Translations under genes and position numbers: made by a program
IMG/VR virus record: IMGVR_UViG_3300030106_007995
Span: 1 to 20,572 of that record
Length of the DNA stretch: 20,572 bases
DNA from: a virus
Reading direction: 5' to 3' (one strand)
The notes under the pieces: model-generated
What the model was told of the DNA's origin: nothing
What the model saw: the letters and a program-made list of their open reading frames with translations, nothing else
Database searches by the model: none
Shown here: in pieces, positions 1 to 18,839 of the stretch
How the letters are laid out: every line of letters starts with the position of its first letter
How positions within the stretch are numbered: the first letter of the stretch is position 1

Positions 1-100
1 TTTGAAAAGAAGAAAAATAGTATTGCTCTTGCCAACACCTACCACCGAATTCTCCTTCCCTATCACCGTAATATATTGCTGTTACCAGGGTTGTACTCAT
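1..100 (-). CDS. 5' part of an unidentified protein, possibly a glycosyltransferase (runs off left edge)
   Basis: An open frame reads leftward from an ATG at 100-98 for 33 codons to the window edge without a stop. It begins MSTTLVTAIYYGD and continues with EFGGR. A short beta-strand-like start (TLVTAIYYG) is how several phage and LPS glycosyltransferases begin, and the neighbourhood is rich in such genes, but 33 residues do not establish a family. Support for a real gene is a TATAAT box 8 nt upstream of the ATG on the minus strand (109-114), the same arrangement seen before most genes here. It is divergent from gp47, with a 25-bp gap between start codons. Confidence 0.55.
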   Translation of the reverse strand, partial: MSTTLVTAIYYGDREGEFGGRCWQEQYYFSSFQ

Positions 101-118
101 TTGTAATTATTATATCAT
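91..118 (+). promoter_or_regulatory. Sigma70-like promoter of gp47
   Basis: TTGTAC (91-96), a 16-nt spacer and TATCAT (113-118), ending 7 nt before the GTG start of gp47. The position fits the pattern at other genes in the window and supports the GTG start. Confidence 0.5.
109..114 (-). promoter_or_regulatory. -10 box for the leftward partial gene
   Basis: On the minus strand this reads TATAAT (TATAATA with the next base), 8 nt before the ATG at 100. No convincing -35 hexamer is visible at 15-17 nt. It overlaps the -10 of the gp47 promoter on the other strand. Confidence 0.45.
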
Positions 119-125
119 ATTTACA

Positions 126-1187
126 GTGAGTTCTGTAAATTTCAAACAACCTAAAATTTGTTGTATATCAGATATCCATTTAGGTGTTCATCAAAATAAC
201 AGCAGTTGGCATAAAATACTTTTGGATTGGGCTAACTGGCTTAATAAAGAATTAGAAAAAAGAAAAATAAAAGATATAATGATATGTGGTGACTTGTTTC
301 ACTACAGAGATGAAATTGCAGTAAACAGTCTTCATGTTGCAAATGAATTTTTTGATATTCTTCAATCTTATAATATCGTTCTTATAACCGGTAACCATGA
401 TTGTTATTATAAAGACAACAGTCTGGTTAACTCTTTATCTATCTTAAAGGGTAGACCTAACTTAAAGATAATTGATCAATACCATACACAGACAATTTTT
501 GATAGAGACATTACTTTTTGTCCTTGGGGTACAAAGATAAGTGATATTAAAGCAAATAGCGATATTATTTTTGGTCATTTTGAACTTCTTGATTTTAAAA
601 TGAATAATTTTAAGGTTTGTGATCATGGCGACTCTCCAGAAAAAATATTAGAAAGAGGCAGCAAAGTTATTACAGGTCATTTTCATCTAAGAGATAAAAG
701 AAAGTATAAAAACGGGGAAATTTTATATCTTGGTAACCCGTTTGAAATGGATTTTGGGGATGCTGGTAGTACTAAAGGTTGGTATGAGTTAGATTTCAAT
801 ACTCTTGAAACGAAATTCCATTTAAATGATATATCTCCCAAACATATAAAAATACCTTTAAGTGAGCTTATAAAATATGACGGTATAACTAATGAACTAA
901 AAGCGATACTTAAAGGAAATATAATTAAGTTGGTTATTGATAAGAATATACAAGCCGATGACTTGGATATTATAATGGTTTGTTTGAATAACCTTAAACC
1001 CTTTTCAATTAATGTTGATTACGAAATTAATTTTAATAAGTTTTCAGTAGAAGGTGAAGTAGAATATGAATATTCTGGCGTTGATTATGAAACAGCGATA
1101 ACCGACTTTGTTAGTATGTTAGATATTAACAATAAAAAAGACGTCATACAGTATACAATAGATTTATATAAAGCATGCAAGGAATAG
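126..1187 (+). CDS. 47: gp47, SbcD/Mre11-like recombination nuclease subunit
   Basis: Catalytic subunit of the T4-type gp46/gp47 complex, which resects DNA ends for recombination-dependent replication. All calcineurin-like phosphoesterase motifs are present in order: D16-x-H18, GD at 55-56, GNHD at 89-92, GH at 150-151 and GHFH at 184-187. These supply the two-metal site. The length of 353 residues is close to T4 gp47 (about 340). The start is a GTG; the first downstream ATG would remove motif I, and a promoter-like element ends 7 nt before the GTG. The 3' end overlaps the next gene by 13 nt. In T4, gp47 and gp46 lie close together; here a glycosyltransferase gene separates them. The family call is firm. 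Confidence 0.95.
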   Translation: MSSVNFKQPKICCISDIHLGVHQNNSSWHKILLDWANWLNKELEKRKIKDIMICGDLFHYRDEIAVNSLHVANEFFDILQSYNIVLITGNHDCYYKDNSLVNSLSILKGRPNLKIIDQYHTQTIFDRDITFCPWGTKISDIKANSDIIFGHFELLDFKMNNFKVCDHGDSPEKILERGSKVITGHFHLRDKRKYKNGEILYLGNPFEMDFGDAGSTKGWYELDFNTLETKFHLNDISPKHIKIPLSELIKYDGITNELKAILKGNIIKLVIDKNIQADDLDIIMVCLNNLKPFSINVDYEINFNKFSVEGEVEYEYSGVDYETAITDFVSMLDINNKKDVIQYTIDLYKACKE

Positions 1188-1942
1188 GTATAGTATTATT
1201 TACGTTAGGTGGTAAAAATTTAAAAAGAGCCATTAGAGGGTTGACTGATTACTTAGATAAAACAGTCATCGTTAATGATGGTAAAAAAGAAAACGTAGAT
1301 GAAACAAAAGTTAGAAAATATATTAAACCAGCATATGTAAAATACCCTTCTGCTTGTTATAATATGGGTATTAGAGAACTTCTAAAAGATGATACAATTG
1401 AACATATTTTTATCTTAAACGATTCAATTGAAATTTTGGACGATACTTTATTTGAAGATTACATTAATGCTGCAAAGAAAACAAATTTAAAATCTTTTTA
1501 TTATTGTACCGCTGCTGATGACCCAACTGGTACATTTAATAATGAAAGAATGAAAGTAGATATAGGTACTGGGTATAAAAAAATGACATTAAACATGGGT
1601 ACGTCAGGTAGTTTAGTTTATCTACATAAAGATATTTTTAAGAAAGTGGGTTTCTTTGATGAAAGATTTAAAGGAGCTATTGAATGGTCTGATATGTGTT
1701 ATAGAATATCACAAAAAAATCTTTCCACTCCCTTTCTATGGTTTCCTCATTTAGAAGCGGTAGATGCTAAAATATATGTTAGTGACAACGAAGAAATATA
1801 CAAAGATGATATGGAAGATAGGATTATTAGAGGGTTTAAATTGTTTCATATGAAATATAAATGCCAGATACAAGATCTTATCAATACATATTCCAAAAAA
1901 GACGTTGTACAAAAACTAAAAAAGAAAGCTAGATCTTCTTAG
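1175..1942 (+). CDS. GT-A (GT2-like) glycosyltransferase
   Basis: Likely transfers a sugar from a nucleotide-activated donor; donor and acceptor are unknown. The N-terminus (IGIVLFTLGG, then VIVNDG at 31-36) has the start of a GT-A Rossmann-like fold. LNDSIE at 81-86 sits where a DxD-type metal and nucleotide motif is expected. GFFDERF (159-165) followed by EWSDMCYR (170-177) matches the acceptor-side FDE...ED..R pattern of GT2 enzymes. At 255 residues it is a single catalytic domain with no membrane segment. It overlaps gp47 by 13 nt, so it is probably translated with it, and lies 23 nt before gp46. It is an insertion between two subunits of one complex. A role in DNA or virion glycosylation is inference. 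Confidence 0.8.
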   Translation: MQGIGIVLFTLGGKNLKRAIRGLTDYLDKTVIVNDGKKENVDETKVRKYIKPAYVKYPSACYNMGIRELLKDDTIEHIFILNDSIEILDDTLFEDYINAAKKTNLKSFYYCTAADDPTGTFNNERMKVDIGTGYKKMTLNMGTSGSLVYLHKDIFKKVGFFDERFKGAIEWSDMCYRISQKNLSTPFLWFPHLEAVDAKIYVSDNEEIYKDDMEDRIIRGFKLFHMKYKCQIQDLINTYSKKDVVQKLKKKARSS

Positions 1943-1957
1943 TAAATCTTTTATAAT
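1930..1957 (+). promoter_or_regulatory. Promoter-like element of gp46
   Basis: A perfect TATAAT (1952-1957) lies 8 nt before the gp46 ATG. The -35 at 16 nt is weak (TAGATC, 1930-1935). The -10 match and distance to the start codon are the same as at gp43. Confidence 0.4.
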
Positions 1958-1965
1958 AAAGATCA

Positions 1966-3786
1966 ATGAAGCAAATCTTCTTCGAAGAAGTCTCTATTCA
2001 AAACTTTCTTTCTGTTGGTAATGAACCAGTAAAAGTTCAATTTAATCGCGGCTTCAATATAATAACCGGGTCAAATAAAGATAAAGAAGATAGACGCAAT
2101 GGTGTAGGTAAAAGTACAATAGCTGATTCAATAAATTTTGCTGTATTTGGATCCACTTTAAGAGAATTAAAAAAAGAACTAATCCAAAATAACCTAACTA
2201 ATGAAACTTGTTCAGTAACTTTATCGTTTAAGGTCGTTACACCACAAGATACAAATAATTATACCATTAACCGTACTATTTCTCCTTCTAAATGTTACAT
2301 TTACAAAAATGGGCAAGATATAACTAGAGATTCTATAATTAACACTAATGATTACATAAAAGAACTTATTAACTGTTCAGAAGACGTCTTTCAAAATTGT
2401 GTAATTATGACAGTAAACAATACTGTACCTTTTATGGGTAAGAAAAAGGTTGAAAAACGTAAATTTATAGAAGGTATTTTTAATTTAGAAATTTTTAGTA
2501 ACATGATTTCTAATCTTCGTAGTGATTATAATGAAACTAAAAAAGATTTCGATATTGAATCTACACGTTATGATGAAAACAATAGTACTTTAGAAAACTT
2601 TAAGTCTCAAAGAAACAATCTATTAGAAGAACGCAATCAAAAAATTACAAAATACAAAAATAGACAGGAAGACAATAAACGTGCTCTTTTAGATATAAAA
2701 AGTAAAATAAAAAGCATTGAAGATGATGCAATTAAACAAAATGAAGAATTAATTAGCAAGATAGAATCGAAAATTAAGGAACTATATGTACAAAAATCTG
2801 AAAAACAAACCGAAATTGGAAAAATCGGTGGGTTACAATCACAACTTGAAAGTACTCTTTTAAAAATAGGTACAGATGAAGAGATATGTCCTACTTGTCT
2901 ACGTAAATTAGAAGATCACGATACCGAACACATTAATAAAGAAAAGAAAGCAATTGAAGACGGTATAAAAAAATATGACTCTAGGATATCTGAACTTAAA
3001 GCTAATATATCTGAGTATACTGCATTAGAAACCAAACTTACAACCGGTATACAAAAGATAAGAACTAAAATTAAAACAATAAACAATGAAATTTCAGACC
3101 AAAAAGTACTAAAACAAAAAGCAAAACAACTTTTAGAATGGCAATCACAATTAAAACTGGATATTAAGGAACTAAAATCTGGTGATTCCAATTTAGATGA
3201 AGTTATAGATGAATATATTAGTAAAGTAAAGGATATAAAAAGTAAACTTGACCGAGTAAAGAAAAAGATTAATATGCTTGATGTGGTAAAGTATGTTGTG
3301 TCTGAAGAAGGGGTAAAATCCTATATTGTTAAAAAGATATTAACCGTATTCAATCAAAAACTAGCTTATTATCTTAAAAAGATGGATAGCAATTGTGTTT
3401 GTATTTTTAATGAATATTTTGAAGAACAAATAATAAATGAAAAAAATAAAATCTGTTCATATTTTAACTTTTCTGGAGCAGAGCGGAAAAATATTGATTT
3501 GGCTTGCTTATTTGCTTTTATGGATATAAGAAGGCTACAAGGTGACGTTGCATTTAACTTCAGCATGTATGATGAACTTTTTGATAGTAGTTTGGACGAA
3601 AAAGGAGTAGATTTGGTAACAAATATTTTAAGAGAGCGTGTAGAAAAATTCAATGAGTGTGTTTATGTTATTAGTCATAGGAAAGAAAGCGTTAAAGCTG
3701 CTACAGGTGAAGTTATTTACCTTGAAAAGACAAACGGTATTACTCGAAAAGTAGAATATAGAGAAATTGATAAAGATTTAGACTAA
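1966..3786 (+). CDS. 46: gp46, SbcC/Rad50-like recombination ATPase subunit
   Basis: ATPase partner of gp47 in DNA-end resection. The N-terminal half-ATPase carries an unusual Walker A: after ITGSN there are seven extra residues before NGVGKST (45-51); T4 gp46 has a compact TGRNGGGKST. A long coiled coil fills roughly residues 185-440, with a zinc-hook CPTC at 308-311 at its tip. The C-terminal half has the ABC signature SGAERK (from S503), Walker B MYDE (D536, E537) and the H-loop ISH (H571). The length of 606 residues is near T4 gp46 (560). All catalytic elements are present, so it should be active. It follows a glycosyltransferase rather than gp47 and is followed by another, with the clamp (45) and clamp-loader (44/62) genes not beside it. 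Confidence 0.94.
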   Translation: MKQIFFEEVSIQNFLSVGNEPVKVQFNRGFNIITGSNKDKEDRRNGVGKSTIADSINFAVFGSTLRELKKELIQNNLTNETCSVTLSFKVVTPQDTNNYTINRTISPSKCYIYKNGQDITRDSIINTNDYIKELINCSEDVFQNCVIMTVNNTVPFMGKKKVEKRKFIEGIFNLEIFSNMISNLRSDYNETKKDFDIESTRYDENNSTLENFKSQRNNLLEERNQKITKYKNRQEDNKRALLDIKSKIKSIEDDAIKQNEELISKIESKIKELYVQKSEKQTEIGKIGGLQSQLESTLLKIGTDEEICPTCLRKLEDHDTEHINKEKKAIEDGIKKYDSRISELKANISEYTALETKLTTGIQKIRTKIKTINNEISDQKVLKQKAKQLLEWQSQLKLDIKELKSGDSNLDEVIDEYISKVKDIKSKLDRVKKKINMLDVVKYVVSEEGVKSYIVKKILTVFNQKLAYYLKKMDSNCVCIFNEYFEEQIINEKNKICSYFNFSGAERKNIDLACLFAFMDIRRLQGDVAFNFSMYDELFDSSLDEKGVDLVTNILRERVEKFNECVYVISHRKESVKAATGEVIYLEKTNGITRKVEYREIDKDLD

Positions 3787-3794
3787 AATAAATA
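3767..3794 (+). promoter_or_regulatory. Sigma70-like promoter of the GT-B transferase gene
   Basis: TTGATA (3767-3772) inside the end of gp46, a 16-nt spacer and TAAATA (3789-3794), ending 6 nt before the ATG at 3801. The -35 is strong and the -10 fair. Confidence 0.45.
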
Positions 3795-3800
3795 AGCACA

Positions 3801-5036: not shown

Positions 5037-5064
5037 TTGAAACATTCGCAGATTACTCTATAAT
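5037..5064 (+). promoter_or_regulatory. Sigma70-like promoter of gp43
   Basis: TTGAAA (5037-5042), a 16-nt spacer and a perfect TATAAT (5059-5064), lying just after the upstream stop codon and ending 8 nt before the gp43 ATG. The predicted transcript starts at about 5071, leaving almost no 5' leader. There is no Shine-Dalgarno sequence. Confidence 0.65.
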
Positions 5065-5072
5065 AGATCTGT

Positions 5073-7661: not shown

Positions 7662-7666
7662 AAAAT

Positions 7667-8698
7667 ATGAGTAAATCTGAAAATAGATTAAAATTAAATG
7701 AACAAATGCCAGAACTAGCTGGTGAAGTATCTTCTTTTTTTGAAGATCTTGAACAAACAAAAACGGTAGACGAAACTATTTTTGTTATGGTACCAAGTTA
7801 CAGGGATAAAGACCTTAACAATACGCTAATTGATCTTTATAGTAAAGCTAAAGACCCTCATTTACTTTCAGTGTGTGTTTTTGATCAATCTGAAAAAGAT
7901 GTGTTGGTAGATTTTGATAAAACTAATATGCATTATATACACACCAATTATAGAAATGCAAAAGGTATAGGACATGCAAGAAATATGATTCAAAATTTTT
8001 ATAACAACGAAACTTATTTTTTATCTATTGATTCGCATATGAGATTTACCACAGAATGGGATGTTAAATGTAAACAAATATATAAAACGTTAAAAGGTTA
8101 TTATCGAAACCCTTTAGTTACTAATTATTGTAATGAATTGGTTTATGATTATGAAATAGATTTATACCCTGACGATGTAAAAGAACAATTTACGAAAATT
8201 GATAACTATTATATTAAAAAAGACGAGTTAAGCTATATTGACGTTAAAAAATATACAGACTATGATGGAAAAAGAGCTCGAAAAACTCCTGAAGAACCGG
8301 TAGGTGAATTTAGAATGTCTTCTTGGGTGTCTTTACATTTTACATTTACAGAAGGGTTATTTTTTAGAAAGATGGGTTTTGATTCCGATCACTTTTTTTC
8401 TGGAGAAGAATATAATATAACGCTTAGATCTTTTACTAATGGTTATGACTTAATAAGCCCTTATGAACCGATTATGTATCATCATTATCGAACCGATTCA
8501 TATAGAAATGAACCACAAAACTATATTGTTGATAATAAAAAGTGGGCTGATTTAGATTCAAAAGGTATTTTAAAAAATAAACTTTTAACTTCAGGAGAAA
8601 TCTGCACTTGGGGTCTTGGTGACGAAAGAGATATAGAATCGTTTTTCAAATATATGAGGGATAAATCTGGTAAAAAATTATCGGTTGATTTAGATTGA
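7667..8698 (+). CDS. GlcNAc-transferase-like (GT60-type) glycosyltransferase
   Basis: Resembles the family typified by Skp1 polypeptide GlcNAc-transferase, soluble GT-A enzymes also found in phages and giant viruses. Residues 1-36 are a variable, acidic lead-in. FVMVPSYRD (39-47) starts the fold, GIGHARN (100-106) is a family hallmark, and LSIDSHMRF (119-127) holds the D-S-H metal motif in place of DxD, followed by WD. A later region with SSWVSLHFTF and GLFFRKMGFD fits the acceptor half. The length of 343 residues fits a single domain. It starts 5 nt after gp43, with no clear promoter or Shine-Dalgarno, so it probably depends on gp43 transcription. The actual acceptor is unknown. Confidence 0.85.
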   Translation: MSKSENRLKLNEQMPELAGEVSSFFEDLEQTKTVDETIFVMVPSYRDKDLNNTLIDLYSKAKDPHLLSVCVFDQSEKDVLVDFDKTNMHYIHTNYRNAKGIGHARNMIQNFYNNETYFLSIDSHMRFTTEWDVKCKQIYKTLKGYYRNPLVTNYCNELVYDYEIDLYPDDVKEQFTKIDNYYIKKDELSYIDVKKYTDYDGKRARKTPEEPVGEFRMSSWVSLHFTFTEGLFFRKMGFDSDHFFSGEEYNITLRSFTNGYDLISPYEPIMYHHYRTDSYRNEPQNYIVDNKKWADLDSKGILKNKLLTSGEICTWGLGDERDIESFFKYMRDKSGKKLSVDLD

Positions 8699-8711
8699 GA
8701 GTAGATAAAAT
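8685..8711 (+). promoter_or_regulatory. Sigma70-like promoter of the 119-residue gene
   Basis: TTGATT (8685-8690), a 15-nt spacer and TAAAAT (8706-8711), ending 6 nt before the ATG at 8718. It lies in the last codons of the upstream glycosyltransferase. Confidence 0.4.
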
Positions 8712-8717
8712 ATTGAT

Positions 8718-9077: not shown

Positions 9078-9098
9078 CAAAAACACAACTATATTGGT

Positions 9099-9124: not shown

Positions 9125-9125
9125 C

Positions 9126-9153
9126 TTGATAACTAATTTTTATACTATATAAT
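9126..9153 (+). promoter_or_regulatory. Sigma70-like promoter of uvsX
   Basis: TTGATA (9126-9131), a 16-nt spacer and a perfect TATAAT (9148-9153), immediately after the terminator T-run. The -10 ends 6 nt before the ATG at 9160, so the predicted start of transcription is the A of the start codon. This is the clearest promoter in the window. Confidence 0.75.
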
Positions 9154-9159
9154 ACTTGT

Positions 9160-10245: not shown

Positions 10246-10249
10246 GCGT

Positions 10250-11851: not shown

Positions 11852-11863
11852 TTGATATATACT
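11836..11863 (+). promoter_or_regulatory. Weak promoter-like element of the QueC-like gene
   Basis: TGGTAA (11836-11841), 16 nt, TATACT (11858-11863), ending 7 nt before the ATG at 11871. It is reported only because spacing and distance match the clearer promoters in the window. Confidence 0.25.
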
Positions 11864-11870
11864 ATTTTAT

Positions 11871-12659
11871 ATGGATAAAGCAGTAATGATTTTTAGTGGT
11901 GGCATGGATAGTGCTGCTATGTTAAGAATGGCTCAATTTTCATCTGGTGAACTACACTGTTTAACTTTTGATTATGGTCAGAGGCATAAACGAGAACTTG
12001 ATTGTGCAAAAGTACAAATTGAACATGCTAAGTTGGTTGCTTTTAGTCATAATTTTGAAGATTCAGATGTAAAGCATAAAGTTATTGACGTATCTTTCTT
12101 AAAAGATATGCTAACTTCAAGCTCGCTTACTAATGAAGAAATAGACAACCCTGATGTAAAAGATATGGTTGGTGAAGCACAACCAGTAAGTTATGTACCT
12201 TTTAGGAACCAAATGTTTTTATCTATGGCTTGTGCTTATGCAGAGTCAATTGGTGCTAATAAAGTGTATCATGGTGCAACAGCAGTAGATAGTTTAGCTG
12301 GTTATTGGGATGGAAGTGAAGAGTTTAGAGAGCAATTTCAAACTTTGATATCACTAAACAGAACAAATGAAATACAATTAGATTGTCCTTTACTTAGTAT
12401 GAATAAACAAGCAATTGTAGATTATTGCGTTGGTAGTAGAGTAGACCTTAAGTATACATACACATGTTATAGCGGTGAAGAACTTTCAGATGCAACTACA
12501 CCAAGTAGTTCATTAAGAATAAAAGGTTTTGCTGATGCTGGTTATATTGACCCTATCCCATATAAGCAAGACTTAACTGAATTTTGGGAAGAACATAAAT
12601 GCAAACCGTATCCTATTAATGAGGTATTTTCTGATAGATATGGTACAAGAGGACCATAA
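11871..12659 (+). CDS. queC: QueC-like PP-loop protein lacking most zinc cysteines
   Basis: QueC converts carboxy-deazaguanine to preQ0 with ATP and ammonia. The PP-loop SGGMDS is at 9-14, followed by family stretches FDYGQRH (33-39), VPFRNQ (109-114), ATAVDS and CPLLSMNK (172-179). The C-terminal region keeps TCY (C199) and LRIKGF (215-220) but not the rest of the usual C...CGxCxxCxLR zinc site: aligning on LR, the three cysteines correspond to D207, T210 and S213. Length is 262 against about 230 for typical QueC, the extra being C-terminal. No other preQ0 gene (QueD, QueE, FolE, DpdA) is in the window. It may make preQ0, be a Gat-QueC-type amide-handling partner, or have a new substrate. 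Confidence 0.82.
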   Translation: MDKAVMIFSGGMDSAAMLRMAQFSSGELHCLTFDYGQRHKRELDCAKVQIEHAKLVAFSHNFEDSDVKHKVIDVSFLKDMLTSSSLTNEEIDNPDVKDMVGEAQPVSYVPFRNQMFLSMACAYAESIGANKVYHGATAVDSLAGYWDGSEEFREQFQTLISLNRTNEIQLDCPLLSMNKQAIVDYCVGSRVDLKYTYTCYSGEELSDATTPSSSLRIKGFADAGYIDPIPYKQDLTEFWEEHKCKPYPINEVFSDRYGTRGP

Positions 12660-13345
12660 TGAAAATATTTAACAAAGAAGAAATAGCTAAAAAGGGCTAT
12701 CCTGACGACACAGCATTTTCATCACATATACCTTATCTAAGTTATGTGGTGGATTTTTTATTTGATAAAAACGGTGGCGAAAAACTTAGCATTTTAGAAT
12801 GCGGCACCGGTCATGGTAGTAGTAAATTTTTTAGTGAAATAACTAAAGAAGGAAAAGCAAAAGTATGGGGTATAGAATATCATAATACAAAACCAGACTG
12901 TTGGTTTGATACTATGAAAAAGCTATATAGTAATGAAAACTACAATATAACACTTGAGCCACAAGGTATTTTTGTTTGGGGTTCTCCAACATTTGAAAAA
13001 TTAGATAATCATTACGATATTATATTTGTCGATTCGAGTGGTTATGAAAATAGAGCTAATTGGGTAAAATTTGCTTCTAAAGGAAGAGCTAAAGTGGTAA
13101 TATTACATGATAGTGAACACATGCATAGATTTAAACCGTGGTTCTTAAATTTTGTAACTGAAAATTTTAAACATGTATATGATTCATGGCCTACTCAAAA
13201 TCCTGGAACTTTATTTGCAAGTAATATAGATTTAGATTGTAATTTAATATTTGAAGGTAGGCATGATGATATGCCTCAAATTGATGATCATGAAGAATTA
13301 GATGCTACAAAGTATGGTTACCCTATTCAAGAACATACAGATTAA
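12659..13345 (+). CDS. Class I SAM-methyltransferase-like protein
   Basis: Motif I ILECGTGHGSS (45-55) gives the glycine-rich SAM-binding loop after the first strand; IEYHN (72-76) fits the acidic second-strand end; YDIIFVDSSGY (119-129) and VVILHDSEH (146-154) fit the later strands of the Rossmann fold. This resembles small methyltransferases of polysaccharide and phage clusters; O-methylation of a sugar is an inference. The start overlaps the QueC-like stop by one base and is preceded at 5 nt by AAGAGGA, one of the few good Shine-Dalgarno sequences here, consistent with translation from an upstream promoter. Its stop codon overlaps the stop of the convergent gene. Confidence 0.8.
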   Translation: MKIFNKEEIAKKGYPDDTAFSSHIPYLSYVVDFLFDKNGGEKLSILECGTGHGSSKFFSEITKEGKAKVWGIEYHNTKPDCWFDTMKKLYSNENYNITLEPQGIFVWGSPTFEKLDNHYDIIFVDSSGYENRANWVKFASKGRAKVVILHDSEHMHRFKPWFLNFVTENFKHVYDSWPTQNPGTLFASNIDLDCNLIFEGRHDDMPQIDDHEELDATKYGYPIQEHTD

Positions 13346-13887
13346 TAATCTTCTAAATCAGTTTCGGTTTCAGCAGTAAAATCTTGAAAAGCTTCAATCT
13401 CCCCTAATTTATCTGGATCTACTTCATCCATTTGCGGTTCTTCTTCACCAAAGACTTCATCTAGTAAACCATTTATTATCATATCCTTTACTATATTTTC
13501 AACTTCATCTTTATCGAATATTTTTGAACCGAAATCTATAATTTCTTTAGCTGTAGTTGGTGTTACTTCTACAAAACTTATAATATCTTTTTGTAACCCC
13601 TTTAATGGGGTTTCATAGGCTTTATCAGCTACTTTAAACTTACGTTTTCCTAAAGCAACCTTTCCTTGTGAAGCTTTTTTATATCTTGTATCTCTACTTC
13701 TTGCTCCAGCTCCACCTCTAATACCCTTTATTCTCATCATCATCTCATAATATGACTCTTTCCGTTCTTCTCCGGTATCGGGATCGATAACAGTTTTTCT
13801 TACACGGTCTTCGAATTGTTTCTTTCTTCCTTCAGTTAAAGACTTTTCATAAGATTCGAATAAAAATTGAGTATCTTTGTCTTTCAT
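13342..13887 (-). CDS. Unidentified basic/acidic protein, candidate virion-associated
   Basis: The only complete minus-strand gene. 181 residues, no recognised domain. Residues 1-20 form an amphipathic start (FLFESYEKSLTEG) containing LFE (9-11) and LTE-G (17-20). L/I-x-E is the known target of T4-type prohead protease gp21, and many T4 internal head proteins start with a cleaved targeting peptide of this kind. Residues 20-95 are rich in Lys and Arg and could bind nucleic acid; the tail from about 147 is strongly acidic. Upstream is TAATAAATA ending 7 nt before the ATG, near the T4 late consensus TATAAATA. Opposite orientation plus late-like promoter suggest a late gene, but function is unproven. 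It converges on the methyltransferase with a 4-bp shared stop overlap. Confidence 0.8.
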   Translation of the reverse strand: MKDKDTQFLFESYEKSLTEGRKKQFEDRVRKTVIDPDTGEERKESYYEMMMRIKGIRGGAGARSRDTRYKKASQGKVALGKRKFKVADKAYETPLKGLQKDIISFVEVTPTTAKEIIDFGSKIFDKDEVENIVKDMIINGLLDEVFGEEEPQMDEVDPDKLGEIEAFQDFTAETETDLEDY

Positions 13888-13888
13888 A

Positions 13889-13916
13889 TTGAAATATTTA
13901 TTAGATTCTTTATAAT
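13889..13916 (+). promoter_or_regulatory. Sigma70-like promoter of the amidotransferase gene
   Basis: TTGAAA (13889-13894), a 16-nt spacer and a perfect TATAAT (13911-13916), ending 8 nt before the ATG at 13925. The whole element fits into the 37-bp divergent gap and overlaps the minus-strand late-like box. Confidence 0.65.
13894..13903 (-). promoter_or_regulatory. T4-late-like promoter box of the minus-strand gene
   Basis: On the minus strand this contains TAATAAATA (13903-13895), one base from the T4 late box TATAAATA over the last eight positions. It ends 7 nt before the ATG at 13887. It lies within the 37-bp divergent region shared with the amidotransferase promoter. Confidence 0.4.
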
Positions 13917-13924
13917 ATAAACAA

Positions 13925-14566
13925 ATGTGTGCAATATTTGGTAGTTTGAGTAGAGAACGTTTTATCTCTTTGTATGATCTTAATAAAGATAGAGGCGGTT
14001 ATGCATCTACATTTTGCGGAATAAAAGATGGTAAGATAAACGTTTTTAAGAACAAACTCTTTAATATAGAAGATCTTTATCTTGAAGATTGGGATTATTA
14101 TTTGGGTCATCATCAAGCTCCGACTAGTAAGGTACGAAAATATAGTGAGAATACCTCACACCCATTTAATTATGGTAGGTGGTATGTAGCTCATAATGGT
14201 GTGTTAACTAATTATAGGGATGTAACTGACGTTAGTAATACAAAAGATATTGATACATCTTATATACCAGCATATATGCAGGAATTAGATTTATTGCCTG
14301 TTGAATTAGATGACGATTATATCTTAGAAGAAACATTTACTTCATTTAAAGGAACCCATACATGTTGGGTTTTTGATGAGTCAAAAAGTATATTGTATCT
14401 AACAAAAAATGGTAGTACTTTATTTTCAAACGGAACCGACTTTTCGTCGGTGAGTTTTAATGGTGGTAAATCATTATTAGATGGATATGTATATAAGATG
14501 CACGAAGGAAAAGCGTTTTTAGAATATGTAAAATTTAAAGATAGTAATCCATTTGCAGTAATATAA
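13925..14566 (+). CDS. Stand-alone class II glutamine amidotransferase
   Basis: Ntn-hydrolase glutaminase domain releasing ammonia from glutamine for a partner synthase. After Met removal C2 would be the nucleophile (MCAIFGS). GHHQAPTS (61-68) is the phage-type version of the GHxRxxT loop, with Gln in place of Arg. SHPF (78-81), AHNG (89-92) and D110-T111 match glutamine-binding positions. At 213 residues there is no synthetase domain (no isomerase or asparagine-synthetase part), so a separate partner is needed. The nearby QueC-like PP-loop protein is one candidate, since Gat-QueC fusions exist in archaea and phages; sugar amination is another. It has a clear promoter and starts a transcription unit with the next gene. 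Confidence 0.85.
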   Translation: MCAIFGSLSRERFISLYDLNKDRGGYASTFCGIKDGKINVFKNKLFNIEDLYLEDWDYYLGHHQAPTSKVRKYSENTSHPFNYGRWYVAHNGVLTNYRDVTDVSNTKDIDTSYIPAYMQELDLLPVELDDDYILEETFTSFKGTHTCWVFDESKSILYLTKNGSTLFSNGTDFSSVSFNGGKSLLDGYVYKMHEGKAFLEYVKFKDSNPFAVI

Positions 14567-14569
14567 AAA

Positions 14570-15145
14570 ATGAAAGATTTACTTGATTATAAAGAAACGC
14601 TTGATGTAAATAACCGCAATATTTATAATTTATTTGAAAAGCATAAACCCGAATCTGGTGTTTTTATCGAAACCGGTTGCCACCTAGGTGGTGGTTTAAC
14701 TAAAGCGGTTCACTGTGGTTTTACCAAACTTTATTCTTGTGATATCAACATGGAAAGAGTTGAAACATCAATAGAAAAAGTTTCTGAACTTGCTAGATAT
14801 GGTTCAATAATTGAACCGTATATTTATAATTGTGATTCTAGACTTTTTTTAGCTCAAGTATTGCCACTTATAGAAGAAGATGCATTATTTTGGTTAGATG
14901 CTCATGATGAAGGTGGAGGTGTACCTGTTTTAGAAGAATTAACTCAAATAAGAGATATTTTTAAAAGCAAAACAAGTACTATAATGATTGACGATATTCC
15001 ACTTTATCTTAAACAAGAAGGAATAGAAGAGCTTAAAAAAATTATTAAAGAAATAAACGAGGACTATGAATTTGAAAATCTCACAACTAATGATGGTGGT
15101 AATTATGTAATTATAGCTTCAATAGTTGATAAAGAGGAAAAGTAG
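14570..15145 (+). CDS. Class I SAM-methyltransferase-like protein
   Basis: 191 residues. FIETGCHLGGG (32-42) is a SAM-binding loop; LYSCDIN (54-60) holds the second-strand acidic residue; FWLDAHDEGG (107-116) with PVLEEL and a later TIMIDD (137-142) is a pattern seen in FkbM-like and related methyltransferases of surface-sugar clusters. Which substrate it methylates cannot be told. It is not closely similar to the other methyltransferase-like protein at 12659. It starts 3 nt after the amidotransferase stop with no clear promoter, so the two are probably co-transcribed. Confidence 0.72.
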   Translation: MKDLLDYKETLDVNNRNIYNLFEKHKPESGVFIETGCHLGGGLTKAVHCGFTKLYSCDINMERVETSIEKVSELARYGSIIEPYIYNCDSRLFLAQVLPLIEEDALFWLDAHDEGGGVPVLEELTQIRDIFKSKTSTIMIDDIPLYLKQEGIEELKKIIKEINEDYEFENLTTNDGGNYVIIASIVDKEEK

Positions 15146-15152
15146 TTATAAT
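15126..15152 (+). promoter_or_regulatory. Sigma70-like promoter of the epimerase gene
   Basis: TTGATA (15126-15131), a 15-nt spacer and a perfect TATAAT (15147-15152), ending 6 nt before the ATG at 15159. The TTG of this -35 box could be misread as an upstream start codon of the epimerase. Confidence 0.65.
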
Positions 15153-15158
15153 ACTGAT

Positions 15159-16235
15159 ATGAAAACAGCGTTAGTATGTGGTGCGGGTGGGTTTATTGGT
15201 AACCACCTAGTTAACAGATTAAAAAAAGACGGTTATTGGGTAAGAGGTGTGGATCTTAAGTATCCTGAATTTTCACAAACACAAGCAGATGAGTTTATTA
15301 CAGGTGATCTTACAGGACAGAATTTTGTAGACAGAATAGTTCGTACCGGTGATTATCATTCCAGTGTACCTGTTCAATATCAAGAACAGTTTGATGAAAT
15401 TTATCAATTAGCTGCTGATATGGGTGGCGCTGGTTATATCTTTACAGGTGATCATGATGCTAATGTCATGAGAAACTCAGCAACTATTAATCTTAACGTT
15501 TTAAATTCAGTAAACAAGTTAAATCAGTATGTAAAGATTCCTTGGTTTAATGATTCAAGGGTATATCCTTATGAACAAAAAACGACAAAGATTTTTTATA
15601 GTAGTTCTGCTTGTATGTACCCAGAACATAATCAATTAGACCCAGATAACCCAAATTGTGAAGAATCCTCTGCATACCCTGCTAACCCAGATAGTGAGTA
15701 CGGTTGGGAGAAGTTATTCTCCGAAAGGTTATATCTAGCATATCAAAGAAATTATGGTATTCCTTGTAGAATAGCAAGATTTCATAATATTTACGGTCCT
15801 CAAGGAACGTGGCAAGGTGGGAGAGAAAAAGCTCCTGCAGCCATGTGTAGGAAAGTGGCCGAAACTGAAGATGGCGGTAGTATAGACGTTTGGGGTGACG
15901 GGACCCAAACACGTTCATTCTTGTATATTGATGAATGTGTGGAAGGAATAAGACGTTTGATGGAATCGGACGTTTCAGAACCGTTAAATCTTGGTTCTGA
16001 TGAAATGGTAACAATTAACCAGTTAATTGAAACTGCTGAAACAGTTGCAGGTAAGAAATTAACAAGAAATTATATTGATGGCCCTCTAGGAGTAAGGGGT
16101 AGAAATAGCGATAACAAATTAATCCAAGAAAAGTTGGGATGGGCCCCGCATTACCCACTACTTAAGGGTATTACCCATACATATGACTGGATATATGATC
16201 AAATTAATATCAGCACGTTAAATCGTGAAGCTTGA
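15159..16235 (+). CDS. GDP-mannose 3,5-epimerase
   Basis: Short-chain dehydrogenase-type epimerase converting GDP-D-mannose to GDP-L-galactose and/or GDP-L-gulose. NAD-binding GAGGFIG is at 8-14. C152 (SSACMYP), Y181-x-x-x-K185 and K224 (GREKAPA) match the plant enzyme's catalytic residues, which I recall as C145, Y174/K178 and K217, with the same spacing. Long stretches read like the plant protein, including RFHNIYGPQGTW, DGTQTRSFLYIDECVEG, and GVRGRNSDN near the end. 358 residues. I chose ATG 15159 because the family begins at this strand and the upstream TTG lies in a promoter. It overlaps no neighbour and likely supplies a donor sugar to the glycosyltransferases; GDP-mannose must come from the host or elsewhere in the phage. 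Confidence 0.9.
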   Translation: MKTALVCGAGGFIGNHLVNRLKKDGYWVRGVDLKYPEFSQTQADEFITGDLTGQNFVDRIVRTGDYHSSVPVQYQEQFDEIYQLAADMGGAGYIFTGDHDANVMRNSATINLNVLNSVNKLNQYVKIPWFNDSRVYPYEQKTTKIFYSSSACMYPEHNQLDPDNPNCEESSAYPANPDSEYGWEKLFSERLYLAYQRNYGIPCRIARFHNIYGPQGTWQGGREKAPAAMCRKVAETEDGGSIDVWGDGTQTRSFLYIDECVEGIRRLMESDVSEPLNLGSDEMVTINQLIETAETVAGKKLTRNYIDGPLGVRGRNSDNKLIQEKLGWAPHYPLLKGITHTYDWIYDQINISTLNREA

Positions 16236-16259
16236 TCATTTTAGTTAATAATCTATCAT
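16232..16259 (+). promoter_or_regulatory. Sigma70-like promoter of gp41
   Basis: TTGATC (16232-16237), a 16-nt spacer and TATCAT (16254-16259), ending 7 nt before the ATG at 16267. The -35 overlaps the epimerase stop codon. TATCAT is the same -10 variant as at gp47. Confidence 0.5.
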
Positions 16260-16266
16260 TGTTTAT

Positions 16267-17601
16267 ATGTCTGATAATTCACTGGACTTAGAATACTACG
16301 AAAATGTAGTGCTTTACAAGAGTATTACTGATCCTAGATATTTGGGTTCTATTATAGATCACATTCAACCAAGGTATTTTGAAAATAAAAGCTATCGAAG
16401 CATTATTTCGATCATAAAAGCTTTTTTTATTAAAAGACAAACTATTCCTAGTGCAACCGAGATAGCATCTTATTGTACCACACCGGAATTGAAGACCGAT
16501 TTAAAAGATACCTTATTAAAAATCGATCAATTAGATAAAACGTTTAATACTGAAGAGCTTTATGTTAACACCGAAAGGTTTTTAAAAGAAAAGTCGGTAT
16601 TTCATACAATGTTAGACGTTGCAGATGACTGTGCAAAGGGTAAAGTAGAACCAACAGTAATATTTGATAAGTTTGAAAAGTGTTGTGGTATAAATCTATC
16701 GGTAGATATTGGTTTTGACTTGTTAGTTGATCACGAAAAGTTAATAGAAAACTTACAAATAGAAGAACCTACTATTCCTTCAGGTTGGACGTGGGTAGAT
16801 GAAATGTTAGATGGTGGTTTCTTAGAAAACGGAAGATCAATTTATGTGTTTGCTGGTGAAACTAACGTTGGTAAGTCTATATTTTTAGGAAACATAGCCG
16901 TTAATATGGCTAAACAAGGAAAAACGGTATTAGTGGTATCTCTTGAAATGAGTGAGCTCATGTATGCTAAGAGATTAGCAGGTAATTTAACTGGAATTGA
17001 AATAAACAGCTTAAGACATGAAATACCAGAGTTAAGACATAAGATAGAAAAAGAAATAACCGATAACCCTAAAGGTAAACTACTAATTAAAGAGTTTCCA
17101 CCAAGTACTATTACATCAAATCAGTTGGGTGCATTTATGAAGAAGATAGAACAGAAGGGTATTAAGATTGATGCCTTGGTTCTTGACTATATTAACTTGA
17201 TGCATTCACCTATAGGTAATAATAGTTATGAAAGAGTAAAATATGCAACAGAACAAGTAAGAGCATTATCATACCAACATAATTGTCCTATAATAACTGC
17301 AACTCAGTTAAATAGAACTGGTTACGATACTCAAGACCCTGGATTAGATACAATTGGTGAAAGTATGGGGTTAGCTATGACAGCAGATGCAATATTTTCC
17401 ATATTTCAAAACGAAGAAGATAGAGGGTTAGATCAAATACGGTTGGGGGTTATGAAGAATCGTTTTGGTCCTAACTTTGGTCAGACGGAAATGAGTATAC
17501 ATTACCCTACTTTAACTATTTCCGACGGTGAAGGTGCTGAAGATATGGGTAACGCTGCAGCTAACGTCATGGGTGCTATAGAAGCATTAGCTAATGGTTG
17601 A
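16267..17601 (+). CDS. 41: gp41, DnaB-family replicative helicase
   Basis: Hexameric 5'-3' helicase of the T4-type primosome. Residues 1-140 are the helical N-terminal domain; the RecA-like core has Walker A GETNVGKS (197-204), the second conserved acidic stretch VVSLEMS (223-229), Walker B LVLDY with D307, and the DnaB sensor motif TATQLNR (344-350). The PSGWTWVDEMLDGG lead-in (171-184) is a standard start of the core. The length of 444 residues is near T4 gp41 (475). It is preceded by a promoter and is not next to a primase gene (gp61) in this window. Downstream come the DHH enzyme, a small unknown, the probable loader gp59 and gp32. Confidence 0.95.
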   Translation: MSDNSLDLEYYENVVLYKSITDPRYLGSIIDHIQPRYFENKSYRSIISIIKAFFIKRQTIPSATEIASYCTTPELKTDLKDTLLKIDQLDKTFNTEELYVNTERFLKEKSVFHTMLDVADDCAKGKVEPTVIFDKFEKCCGINLSVDIGFDLLVDHEKLIENLQIEEPTIPSGWTWVDEMLDGGFLENGRSIYVFAGETNVGKSIFLGNIAVNMAKQGKTVLVVSLEMSELMYAKRLAGNLTGIEINSLRHEIPELRHKIEKEITDNPKGKLLIKEFPPSTITSNQLGAFMKKIEQKGIKIDALVLDYINLMHSPIGNNSYERVKYATEQVRALSYQHNCPIITATQLNRTGYDTQDPGLDTIGESMGLAMTADAIFSIFQNEEDRGLDQIRLGVMKNRFGPNFGQTEMSIHYPTLTISDGEGAEDMGNAAANVMGAIEALANG

Positions 17602-17623
17602 GTATCTTCATGAAAATCATAAT
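17598..17623 (+). promoter_or_regulatory. Weak promoter-like element of the DHH gene
   Basis: TTGAGT (17598-17603), a short 14-nt spacer and CATAAT (17618-17623), ending 7 nt before the ATG at 17631. Position fits the pattern but both boxes and the spacer are imperfect. Confidence 0.25.
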
Positions 17624-17630
17624 TATCTAA

Positions 17631-18533
17631 ATGAACGGTAAAGATTACGTATTTACTGATTCGGATTTAGACGGTGTTGGTAGTTTATTAGTGATAAAAT
17701 GGTTGTTGGGAAAGGAAACACTTTTCAAAACTACCACGCATAAGCATTTTAGAGAAGATTTTGTAAACTTTCTCACTAGAAATAAAATTTCCGAATATGA
17801 TACGATCTATATATGTGATTTAAATGTTAGCGAACACGGAGATTTACTTAATTATAAAAATATTGTTGTTATTGACCATCATAATGGTAAAAATAATTAC
17901 GATGAGTTTACAAAGCCTACTTTAATATTAGATAGTGATTATTCTTCTACTACAAAATTAGTATTAAAGTATCTTATTGATAATGTTCCAAATTCAGCTA
18001 CAAAATTAAATGGACCTAAAGCTAAATTAATAGAATTTATTGACGATTACGACTGTTATCGTTTAGCTCATAGAGAAAGCCTCGGTGTAAATTTCGTTTT
18101 ATGGAGCTATACAGGTGCAAGAGTAGATAAATTCATAGATGAATTTTATAACGGGTTTACCGAATTTACATTACACCAAAAAAATATGATTTCGTTAGCT
18201 AATAAGAAGATTAAAGATCATTTAGTTAACGGTGAAGCTTTTTCATATAAAACAAAAATAGATAATAAAGAATATAAACTCATTTCCACGGTTTGTTCCT
18301 ATCACATTAATGAAATAGCATCGGGGATATTAAAAAAGTATGACGCGGACATATCTTTCGTAATAAATACAAAGTCAGGAAGTGTAAGCATTAGAAAACG
18401 TAGCGGGGTACCTGTTAACTTAAACAAACTCGCTGGTAAATTGATAGATGGTGGTGGTCATACCGATTCAGCAGGCGGAAAACTAACAGAAACATTTTTA
18501 AAGTATACAAAACTATTTGATCTTGAATCATGA
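17631..18533 (+). CDS. DHH/DHHA1 phosphoesterase (nanoRNase/RecJ-like)
   Basis: Members hydrolyse phosphodiesters in short oligonucleotides, pAp, cyclic dinucleotides or single-stranded DNA ends. Metal-binding motifs are complete: D10-x-D12-x-D14-G, D63 (CDLN), D82-H-H84 after VVI, and D138-D139 with YD. The C-terminal DHHA1 substrate motif is GGGH (274-277) followed by SAGG, close to the usual GGGHxxAAG. At 300 residues it matches NrnA-like enzymes and lacks the extra domains of RecJ. It stands between gp41 and the gp59-gp32 pair, the place held by RNase H (rnh) in T4, so removal of primers or their remnants is a plausible role. The 3' end overlaps the next gene by 4 nt (ATGA). Confidence 0.88.
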   Translation: MNGKDYVFTDSDLDGVGSLLVIKWLLGKETLFKTTTHKHFREDFVNFLTRNKISEYDTIYICDLNVSEHGDLLNYKNIVVIDHHNGKNNYDEFTKPTLILDSDYSSTTKLVLKYLIDNVPNSATKLNGPKAKLIEFIDDYDCYRLAHRESLGVNFVLWSYTGARVDKFIDEFYNGFTEFTLHQKNMISLANKKIKDHLVNGEAFSYKTKIDNKEYKLISTVCSYHINEIASGILKKYDADISFVINTKSGSVSIRKRSGVPVNLNKLAGKLIDGGGHTDSAGGKLTETFLKYTKLFDLES

Positions 18534-18823
18534 AATACGAAAACCATAATCCAGTAGAGCATACACACAATAAAGAAACAGCTCATGCATTTATGGGGTT
18601 TTGTTCCTTTATTTCTATTCTTAATAATAAGAAAGTAAACCTTCCTAATATTTTTATTTTACTTTTAAAGGATAAGAAGCTTAGAAACCTTTTTAAAGAA
18701 CAGATTGATATAGATACTGACTTTGAAATGGTAAAATTATTTTTATTTTATGATCCTTCCTTGCATAAAAGCAAATATATCATGAAGTATATTAACAGCA
18801 GCAAAAATAAATTGATTCATTAG
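18530..18823 (+). CDS. Small unidentified protein
   Basis: 97 residues, no recognised family. The start overlaps the DHH stop by 4 nt (ATGA), so it is probably translated by coupling. The protein is rich in Lys, Asn, Ile and Leu, mostly helical by composition, with a Leu/Ile/Phe-rich stretch (NIFILLLKD) too short for a confident membrane segment. In T4 the gene just before 59 is gene 33 (late transcription coactivator, 112 residues). Size and position fit gp33, but I see no sequence match and its end (NKLIH) lacks the clamp-binding tail, so I do not call it that. Confidence 0.7.
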   Translation: MKYENHNPVEHTHNKETAHAFMGFCSFISILNNKKVNLPNIFILLLKDKKLRNLFKEQIDIDTDFEMVKLFLFYDPSLHKSKYIMKYINSSKNKLIH

Positions 18824-18839
18824 TGGAGTTATCTATAAT
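18812..18839 (+). promoter_or_regulatory. Sigma70-like promoter of the gp59-like gene
   Basis: TTGATT (18812-18817) in the last codons of the small gene, a 16-nt spacer and a perfect TATAAT (18834-18839), ending 6 nt before the GTG at 18846. It supports the GTG as the true start. Confidence 0.6.

Follow-up and report, generated by a model that had tools for sequence, protein, structure and literature searches.

Why should a T4-like phage carry promoter-like sequences directly against its start codons, and what kind of message would be read from them? The question is raised by the window analyzed here, a stretch of 20,572 nucleotides (positions 1 to 20,572 of IMG/VR record IMGVR_UViG_3300030106_007995), for which an earlier note had predicted near-leaderless, gene-by-gene transcription from sigma70-like promoters. 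The putative promoter elements at its gene starts are listed below, with distances given from the end of the box to the start codon.

91..118, plus strand: gp47 promoter, TTGTAC (91-96), 16-nt spacer, TATCAT (113-118), 7 nt to GTG 126
1952..1957, plus strand: gp46 -10 element TATAAT, 8 nt to ATG 1966, canonical -35 absent
3787..3794, plus strand: T4-late-like box AATAAATA of the GT-B glycosyltransferase gene, 6 nt to ATG 3801
5037..5064, plus strand: gp43 DNA polymerase promoter, TTGAAA, 16-nt spacer, TATAAT (5059-5064), 8 nt to ATG 5073
8685..8711, plus strand: promoter of the 119-residue gene, TTGATT, 15-nt spacer, TAAAAT (8706-8711), 6 nt to ATG 8718
9126..9153, plus strand: uvsX promoter, TTGATA, 16-nt spacer, TATAAT (9148-9153), 6 nt to ATG 9160
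11858..11863, plus strand: weak -10 element TATACT of the QueC-like gene, 7 nt to ATG 11871
13889..13916, plus strand: amidotransferase promoter, TTGAAA (13889-13894), 16-nt spacer, TATAAT (13911-13916), 8 nt to ATG 13925
13895..13902, minus strand: T4-late-like box AATAAATA of the 181-residue gene (13342-13887, minus strand), 7 nt to ATG
15126..15152, plus strand: epimerase promoter, TTGATA, 15-nt spacer, TATAAT (15147-15152), 6 nt to ATG 15159
16232..16259, plus strand: gp41 helicase promoter, TTGATC, 16-nt spacer, TATCAT (16254-16259), 7 nt to ATG 16267
17618..17623, plus strand: weak -10 element CATAAT of the DHH gene, 7 nt to ATG 17631
18812..18839, plus strand: promoter of the gp59-like gene, TTGATT, 16-nt spacer, TATAAT (18834-18839), 6 nt to GTG 18846

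The five perfect sites that had been described (gp43, uvsX, amidotransferase, epimerase, and gp59-like gene) are present, and the variants at gp41 and gp47 (both TATCAT) and at the 119-residue gene hold at the same geometry. Of the sites ranked as weaker, gp46 has a perfect TATAAT but no canonical -35, and the boxes of the QueC-like and DHH genes are weak. The GT-B gene, by contrast, had been assigned a sigma70 site where the box is in fact T4-late-like, and the proposed carbamoyltransferase promoter is ambiguous, the candidate sitting inside conserved coding sequence of the preceding gene. The Shine-Dalgarno (SD) sequence ascribed to the methyltransferase at 12659 is not clear evidence of such a motif, because it lies inside the conserved GTRGP end of QueC. 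For the epimerase, the start picked by the ORF caller, TTG 15126, was rejected, as that TTG is the -35 box itself; the true start is likely 15159. The name of the gp59-like gene was not confirmed by PHROGs, and the corresponding box is absent in all six distant homologues found.

Both computational checks that the earlier note had asked for, against chance and against relatives, came out in favor of the start-adjacent -10 element. Exact TATAAT at a gap of 5 to 8 nt precedes 6 of the 20 window genes, compared with a mean of 0.22 in dinucleotide shuffles (0 of 2,000 shuffles reach 6), and with one mismatch allowed the count is 11 of 20 against a mean of 2.28 (again 0 of 2,000); the other 452 plus-strand ATGs of the window include 1 with an exact and 17 with a one-mismatch match. 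Among ortholog starts, box and distance are kept in 93 of 138 versus 9.0 expected from the control. With a -10 defined by at most one mismatch to TATAAT and a gap of 5 to 9 nt, the element was found in 11 of 18 deduplicated gp47 starts (every one at gap 7; TTGA in 2), 12 of 20 for gp46 (every one at gap 8; TTGA in 1), 19 of 21 for gp43 (TTGA in 14), 15 of 21 for the 119-residue gene (TTGA in 13), 12 of 17 for uvsX (TTGA in all 12), 6 of 14 for the QueC-like gene (TTGA in none), and 8 of 10 for the amidotransferase (TTGA in 4); -10 plus TTGA occurs in 6 of 7 epimerase and 4 of 10 gp41 starts, and in relative L006 the DHH gene is preceded by TTGA and, at 8 nt, by TATAAT. The 45 of 138 ortholog starts without a -10 at 5 to 9 nt count against a start-codon design. 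In some orthologs TATAAT lies farther out and a short leader would therefore be left, of about 15 nt for gp43 in L024 to L026 and gp46 in L010 and L011, and of 11 to 12 nt for gp41 in L012 and L036.

The record belongs to the T4 superfamily: gp47, uvsX, gp41, gp32, and gp45 were matched by PHROGs and gp43 and gp46 identified by tblastn, while a gp23-type capsid protein was detected via Pfam in related contigs (G001, G002, G006, and G007) and was not among the Pfam matches of this 25.6-kb record. The closest gp43 identity is approximately 31%, all 2,585 phage records matched lie below 60%, and none is thus a named isolate with at least 60% identity in gp43; gp23 of G001 shows 31 to 34% identity among the 25 matches listed. 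The lineage has many IMG/VR members and is uncultured, no isolate having been found among the records searched. MotA_activ, for the activator of T4 middle promoters, matched T4 alone among 18 records and had no match in the 12 lineage records, all fragments. Leaderless phages of the phiYS40 type are marked by a shifted IF2/IF3 balance of the host or by a phage translation factor; the IF3 C-terminal domain had no match in the 18 records.

Genome-wide counts were made on six lineage contigs, including the window's record, with 536 genes; each start was set at the farthest upstream ATG or GTG, a choice that can be wrong. In three subgroups, TATAAT at 5 to 8 nt precedes 31/210, 19/245, and 4/81 genes and ATAAATA at 4 to 7 nt 20/210, 45/245, and 8/81 genes, never both at one start; far-upstream expectations per contig are 0.10 to 1.05 and 0.00 to 0.35 genes, respectively. 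A TTGA element 15 to 17 nt upstream of the box accompanies 31 of the 54 exact-TATAAT genes, as in sigma70 promoters, where TTGA(CA) stands 15 to 18 nt above TATAAT, but only 2 of 74 NATAAATA genes. Position-locked -10 boxes, a -35 at fitting distance, the conserved box and gap, and the loss of most SD motifs together lend strong sequence support to host-type promoters on start codons and to predicted leaderless or near-leaderless messages. Box class tracks function: replication-type ortholog families comprise nine with TATAAT and one with NATAAATA, whereas the numbers for virion families are one and ten (Fisher p = 0.0003). The box is absent for gp32 in the window, G003, and G005, no convincing box precedes gp46, gp41, or uvsX in G001 and G002, and none is present at the called starts of gp23, gp4, gp44, and gp55 in any lineage contig examined.

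SD motifs precede 4 to 15% of lineage genes (control, 4 to 7% per contig), compared with 57% in T4, 51% in HTVC008M, 48% in Mosig, and 52% in G011, which bears out the claim that SD sequences are generally lacking. Tetramers occur before 4 of 127 boxed versus 42 of 409 boxless genes. The loss is not complete, as the 15% in G002 exceeds its control of 6%; gp23 of G002 has AAGGAG 9 nt before ATG, and SD-like motifs at unusual spacing precede gp23 of G001 and gp18 of G001 and G002. A -10-like box about 10 bp upstream combined with no SD, the in-silico signature of leaderless genes, is displayed by the boxed genes, not by all genes. Gene-by-gene transcription was an overstatement, since only 205 of the 536 genes (38%) have their own start-adjacent box, and of the 331 without one, 44% overlap the preceding gene and 15% lie within 15 nt after it. 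This overlap, together with an AAGGAG just upstream of the late box of G002 gp19, would fit a dual use in which a leaderless transcript is merely added, much of the protein stemming from read-through transcripts and coupled translation with leaderless initiation minor. We regard this as unlikely, though it is the most serious alternative: for 48 to 51% of boxed genes the nearest upstream gene on that strand is more than 60 nt away and SD tetramers are scarce even before boxless genes, and therefore most leadered transcripts would also be without the usual ribosome site.

T4 late promoters lack a -35 element. The late boxes of the lineage likewise combine a TATAAATA-type box with no -35 and a position before virion genes, ATAAATA without -35 ending 4 to 7 nt before 73 of the 536 starts. 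In seven of seven nonduplicate relatives of the 181-residue gene, NATAAATA is kept, five having it at 7 nt and two at 6 nt; many GT-B relatives have a TAAATA-type box near the start, at variable distance. Among late-box genes, a pyrimidine precedes ATG in 58 of 69 at gap 4 to 5 but in 16 of 34 at gap 6 to 7 (p = 0.00016), which would fit a start codon that doubles as initiator; for the TATAAT class this bias is weak (43 of 63 at gap 5 to 6 versus 178 of 331 boxless, p = 0.04). In the earlier note, late boxes had been mentioned only in passing, as lying near transcript starts but having no -35, and had been treated as a contrast to the start-codon promoters; in this lineage they make up the other half of one design. 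That they are instead a second host sigma site, independent of gp55, is improbable. No gp55 homologue was found in G000 (25.6-kb fragment) or G001, nor gp33 by phmmer in the lineage contigs; however, gp55 homologues are present in G002, G003, G005, and G006, and NATAAATA is the late box of cyanophages and T4 according to PMC2984593.

If the boxes were promoters but transcripts began farther downstream, or translation at a later codon, leadered mRNAs would result, and the most-upstream rule of start calling leaves room for such errors. This reading is very improbable given that residues Y2, R3, and N4 of gp43 are the same in all 12 sequences of the alignment, that the amidotransferase homologues all keep a Met-Cys amino end supporting ATG 13925 (the Cys presumably being the catalytic one), that in-frame stops occur 1 to 6 codons upstream in 7 of 11 window genes, and that in HTVC008M 10 of 14 ATAAATA-N4-7-ATG matches coincide with CDS starts of an independent annotation, among them those of baseplate, tape-measure, and end-protector genes. 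Least credible of all is that the boxes are a by-product of AT-rich, unstructured sequence aiding ribosome access, suggested by the genome's GC content of about 31% and by AT-rich upstream signals in Bacteroidetes and other groups (PMC3160421), since exact hexamers at fixed distance exceed shuffles and far-upstream controls, box type follows gene function, T4, HTVC008M, and Mosig lack the pattern to this extent at similar GC (33 to 35% in T4 and pelagiphages versus 32 to 36% in the lineage), and the TTGA element 16 nt above the box, recurring for the TATAAT class only, already contradicts it.

T4 (Straboviridae) shares the late box TATAAATA without -35 with the lineage, but its ATAAATA copies lie mostly 12 to 29 nt from the start and none closer than 12. 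The phage phiYS40, which is not known to be T4-like, is a precedent for leaderless phage messages such as are predicted here. Most middle and late transcripts of this lytic Thermus phage are leaderless (PMC3594737), and its host belongs to a phylum in which leaderless genes abound (PMC3160421); the lineage differs by its T4-type gene set and late box. In bacteria, leaderless genes are recognized in silico by a TA-like signal some 10 bp before the start (PMC3160421), and in Deinococcus such mRNA has been demonstrated to arise from -10-adjacent promoters (PMC12340547). The leaderless genes of both Deinococcus-Thermus and Actinobacteria share the -10 a few bp before the ORF (PMC12340547; PMC3160421). 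Those genomes are cellular and use one signal, of the -10 type, whereas the phage lineage shows a clear -35 at more than half of its sites and has late boxes as a second class. The two cultured pelagiphages HTVC008M and Mosig show the late part of the pattern in a few genes, with ATAAATA exactly 5 nt before the start in 8 and 6 genes, respectively; they differ in that about half of their genes keep an SD, TATAAT at 5 to 8 nt occurs in one gene each, and other ATAAATA copies are scattered, those of Mosig mostly 15 to 28 nt out. The earlier note had called the use of many host-type promoters together with leaderless messages for core replication genes unusual, but host-type promoters on T4-like middle genes are no rarity in themselves, with precedents in T4-like cyanophages and Ma-LMM01; work by Doron (2016) on Syn9 is said to add another. 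Syn9 itself has no start-adjacent box, its ATAAATA lying mostly 20 to 28 nt out and never closer than 12, and of the 196 genes of P-HM1, two carry ATAAATA and three TATAAT at a start-adjacent gap; MotA had no match in either record. The marine T4-like cyanophages Syn9, P-HM1, and S-PM2 share host-like sigma70 motifs and NATAAATA late promoters, with MotA and AsiA described as absent (PMC2984593). Ma-LMM01 has SigA-type promoters in all classes, early and middle genes included; its late promoters, unlike those of the lineage, are also SigA-like, and the available text of PMC5780444 describes no start-adjacent placement.

Boxes, spacing, conservation, functional partition, SD loss, and gp55 homologues in four of six contigs are direct observations, from which we infer transcript 5' ends, sigma usage, and leaderless translation. 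Very probably, this uncultured T4-like lineage has host-sigma and gp55-type late promoters fused to start codons and mainly leaderless mRNAs. Host RNA polymerase carrying its main sigma factor would read the middle-type genes, which comprise those for replication and recombination as well as some sugar and nucleotide genes, from TTGA-16-TATAAT promoters with the -10 ending 5 to 8 nt before ATG. Late-type (virion) genes would be read from NATAAATA without -35, ending 4 to 7 nt before ATG, presumably by RNA polymerase bound to the gp55 sigma of the phage. The first nucleotide expected in both classes is the A of ATG or 1 to 2 nt from it; messages would therefore be leaderless or nearly so, carrying no SD, and a 70S-type start at the 5'-terminal AUG is therefore the likely ribosome entry. 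Boxless genes, often following or overlapping an upstream gene, are probably reached by coupled translation. As to origin, we lean toward a scenario in which SD initiation was abandoned for most genes as both promoter types were pulled onto start codons, whose bases became the initiator, while a few heavily made proteins, e.g., capsid, kept an SD leader; pelagiphages, in which a few such late promoters occur, would be an intermediate stage.

Textbooks explain phage gene timing with T4, in which a leader with a ribosome-binding site stands between promoter and start codon. The lineage is predicted to keep T4's two-class logic without room for a leader: with promoters right against start codons, many messages should therefore begin at the start codon. 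For pelagimyophages, cyanophage methods for middle and late promoters "did not provide satisfactory results" (PMC7029224), and an OM43 phage with 15 reported late promoters "lacked identifiable middle promoters" (PMC9004378); start-codon promoters are a possible reason for these failed searches. The design gives a rule for locating promoters and the right start codons in genomes of this kind, suggests hosts in which leaderless messages are translated well, and may be tested in culturable pelagiphages.

Five perfect sigma70-like promoters had been described in an earlier note as lying directly on start codons of the window, and on re-reading of all sites they were found exactly as described. 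An exact TATAAT with a gap of 5 to 8 nt between the end of the box and the start codon precedes 6 of the 20 window genes, compared with a mean of 0.22 in shuffled sequences (0 of 2,000 shuffles reached six) and with 1 of 452 ATGs that are not starts. With one mismatch allowed, 11 of the 20 genes are boxed, versus a shuffle mean of 2.28 and 17 of the 452 other ATGs; the rows for gaps of 52 to 55 were left out of this count as an indexing artifact. As far as sequence can tell, the observation of start-adjacent promoters is right, and the same record carries a further box beyond the window:

L001:487 (remainder of the record), gp45 clamp gene, TATAAT at gap 5

At the GT-B gene, a box does lie near the start, but the late type fits it better than the sigma70 type proposed, and the promoter assigned to the carbamoyltransferase gene is ambiguous, the site overlapping conserved coding sequence. 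For the epimerase gene, the TTG at window position 15126, taken as the start by the ORF caller, is the -35 box, and the true start is likely 15159. The 37-bp gap between divergent genes at window positions 13888 to 13924 contains, interleaved, a late box serving the minus-strand 181-aa gene and a TTGA/TATAAT promoter serving the amidotransferase gene.

The full viral record comprises 25,586 bases with a GC content of approximately 31%, and the window covers its first 20,572 bases. PHROGs matches were obtained for gp47, uvsX, gp41, gp32, and the gp45 clamp, gp43 and gp46 were identified by tblastn, and other genes encode a nucleotide-sugar epimerase, a carbamoyltransferase, QueC-like and DHH proteins, and a glycosyltransferase; the name of the "gp59-like" gene is merely positional, as the PHROGs search gave no match for it. 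The closest isolates are cyanophages and pelagiphages, with a gp43 identity of only about 31%, and an IMG/VR search with gp43 returned 49 loci of 30 to 100% identity. A host search in genome contigs gave three matches (26 to 30%), none of which represents the lineage; WhiB, looked for as a sign of an actinobacterial host, was absent from 15 lineage records, and an Rfam scan of the window gave no match reaching the gathering score.

For genome-wide counts, one gene-calling rule was applied to six lineage contigs (G000, G001, G002, G003, G005, and G006, the window's record included), the outgroup contig G011 (30% gp43 identity), and six isolates. Genes with less than 160 nt upstream were left out, giving 536 lineage genes (537 in the -35 profile count). 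Because contigs are related within subgroups (G000, G003, and G005 mutually, and likewise G001 and G002), the gene counts are not fully independent, and they are also broken down by subgroup and by ortholog. Among lineage genes, TATAAT is most frequent at gap 5 to 8 and the T4-late-like ATAAATA at gap 4 to 7; by subgroup, TATAAT genes number 31/210, 19/245, and 4/81 and ATAAATA genes 20/210, 45/245, and 8/81, and none of the 536 genes has both. Start-adjacent TATAAT and ATAAATA were found, respectively, at 1/67 and 0/67 genes of G011 and at 0 and 0 genes of T4 and of Syn9, 1 and 0 of BUCT-ZZ01, 3 and 2 of P-HM1, 1 and 9 of HTVC008M, and 1 and 6 of Mosig. Unguided hexamer and octamer enrichment 4 to 8 nt before starts was led by TAAATA, ATAAAT, AAATAT, and TATAAT, together with AATAAATA, ATAAATAT, and TATAAATA. 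A composition artifact was rejected on four grounds: the shuffles, the ATGs that are not starts, the controls taken far upstream, and the profile of the -35.

Wide class limits raise the exact counts of 54 and 73 genes to 96 for the TATAAT type (gap 5 to 9, with one mismatch tolerated where TTG lies upstream) and 109 for the late type (TAAATA after A, C, or T, gap 3 to 8), and even so 331 of the 536 genes fall in neither class. Of the gene-by-gene transcription that had been proposed, many short units stand and one promoter per gene does not. Boxless genes overlap the preceding gene in 44% of cases, versus 4% and 2% for the boxed genes.

TTGA stands 15 to 17 nt upstream of TATAAT in 31 of the 54 genes and at that position in just 2 of 74 NATAAATA genes. 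The TATAAT class accordingly resembles sigma70 promoters of a host, and the NATAAATA class resembles the late promoters of T4. With orthologs named via HTVC008M proteins, replication-type families divide into nine TATAAT and one NATAAATA, and virion families into one and ten (p = 0.0003 per family); by gene, the ratios are 26:1 and 1:15, the genes not being independent. Exceptions are nrdA, which is of late type, and gp6 of G002, which has TATAAT without a -35. No box lies at the called start of gp23, gp4, gp44, or gp55, and 18/45 replication-type and 12/28 virion genes are boxless. A late box precedes phoH in 5/5 cases, and a gp55 homologue was found in four lineage contigs. Transcription by MotA was rejected, a MotA match being absent from the lineage records searched, all of which are fragments. 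In G003, 39 nt separate the start of the gp17 terminase gene (17904, minus strand) from that of a divergent gene (17943, plus strand), and a TAAATA-type box lies close to each of the two.

The box-to-start distance proved to be conserved among orthologs of nine boxed genes, whose starts were placed by protein alignment: a -10 within one mismatch at gap 5 to 9 is present at 93 of 138 starts, compared with 9.0 in a shifted-start control, and TTGA at spacer 15 to 17 accompanies 56 of the 93. Ortholog starts were left out if their upstream region differed from that of an earlier row by no more than 2 mismatches, if the offset exceeded 18 nt, or if less than 60 nt lay upstream, and L002, L019, L040, and L041 were dropped as near-identical to the window. 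For gp43, the -10 is present at 19/21 starts, the misses being L047 (an outgroup of 30% identity) and L025 (a relative of 56% identity, with TATAAT about 15 nt out). The 45 starts without a -10 belong chiefly to relatives of approximately 42 to 66% identity (gp46, 8; QueC, 8; gp47, 7; gp41, 6; 119-aa gene, 6; uvsX, 5). Both gp46 and uvsX are unboxed in G001 and G002 and overlap the preceding gene there, the unboxed gp41 does so in G002 but not in G001, and in L012 and L036 the gp41 TATAAT lies 11 to 12 nt from the start.

The usual distance from the -10 to +1 is 6 nt, so that a gap of 6 would set +1 on the A of the ATG. In the late class, the base before ATG is a pyrimidine in 58/69 genes at gap 4 to 5 versus 16/34 at gap 6 to 7 (p = 0.00016), as if the start codon doubled as initiator; in the TATAAT class, the bias is weak (43/63 at gap 5 to 6 versus 178/331 boxless genes, p = 0.04; 17/31 at gap 7 to 8). 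Shine-Dalgarno (SD) motifs are mostly missing: SD tetramers 4 to 13 nt upstream of starts occur at 4 to 15% of lineage genes (control, 4 to 7%), with the highest share in G002 (15% versus 6%), and at 4/127 boxed and 42/409 boxless genes. The share is 57% in T4, 55% in BUCT-ZZ01, 51% in HTVC008M, 48% in Mosig, 52% in G011, and 23 to 25% in P-HM1 and Syn9 (controls, 11 to 15%). The scarcity of SDs in the lineage is not a matter of AT content, since GC is similar in the five large lineage contigs (32 to 36%), T4 (35%), and pelagiphages (33%). The start calls are backed by conserved amino ends (L038, with stop codons in the stretch used, and L042 left out of the alignment), the amidotransferase Met-Cys, in-frame stops shortly upstream, and HTVC008M, in which 10/14 ATAAATA-N4-7-ATG matches are annotated starts.

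Leaders are kept at gp23 in two contigs:

G002:86432 (L078), gp23, leader upstream
G001:9391 (L051), gp23, leader upstream

Both have a hairpin-like repeat with differing stems (GCAGA/TCTGC and GTAGAA/TTCTAC), a common AGGTCGAAATA stretch, and an AAGGAG SD-like motif; the G002 leader folds no better than shuffles (z -1.1). The SD-like motif suggests that the lineage uses an SD where one exists.

An archaeal host was rejected: leaderless genes of archaea have a TATA box at about -26, whereas the boxes here lie 4 to 8 nt from ATG, a -35 accompanies one class, and a gp55 homologue was found. A phage initiator tRNA was likewise rejected, as the sole tRNA-CAT of G001 (L057, 5593-5668) pairs G1 with C72 and by eye is not initiator-like. 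Neither IF3 nor S21, considered as phage-encoded helpers, was found in 12 lineage records; S21 is present in HTVC008M and Mosig.

T4 carries the late box chiefly 12 to 29 nt from its starts, the spacing expected if there is a leader, whereas in the lineage the distance is 4 to 7 nt. ATAAATA stands exactly 5 nt before the start of 8 HTVC008M and 6 Mosig genes, and a reversed-pattern control was concordant (14 versus 3 and 10 versus 1 matches); unlike in the lineage, the remaining copies are scattered (in Mosig chiefly 15 to 28 nt out) and SDs are kept in half of the genes. The following boxed starts are candidate leaderless late promoters:

HTVC008M (NC_020484), plus strand, ATAAATA 5 to 7 nt upstream of annotated starts: 6280, 7562, 19456, 31132, 49760, 75559, 117049, 142360
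HTVC008M (NC_020484), minus strand, ATAAATA 5 to 7 nt upstream of annotated starts: 16007, 18916

Work by Doron from 2016 is said to place sigma70-like motifs on T4-like cyanophage middle genes. Sigma70-like motifs are known on T4-like cyanophage genes (PMC2984593) and in Ma-LMM01 (PMC5780444), leaderless messages in the Thermus phage phiYS40 (PMC3594737), and -10-adjacent leaderless genes in bacteria (PMC3160421, PMC12340547); one source says of phage transcripts in general that they "are often leaderless" (PMC5312081), which makes leaderlessness in itself less novel. Published promoter searches had no success with the middle and late classes of pelagimyophages (PMC7029224) or with middle promoters of an OM43 phage (PMC9004378). 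A search of literature listings with little coverage of subscription journals turned up no account of T4-like phages whose promoters sit on start codons or yield leaderless messages. For the lineage, the sequence signs point to messages that are probably leaderless, and the finding is wider than the note had described.
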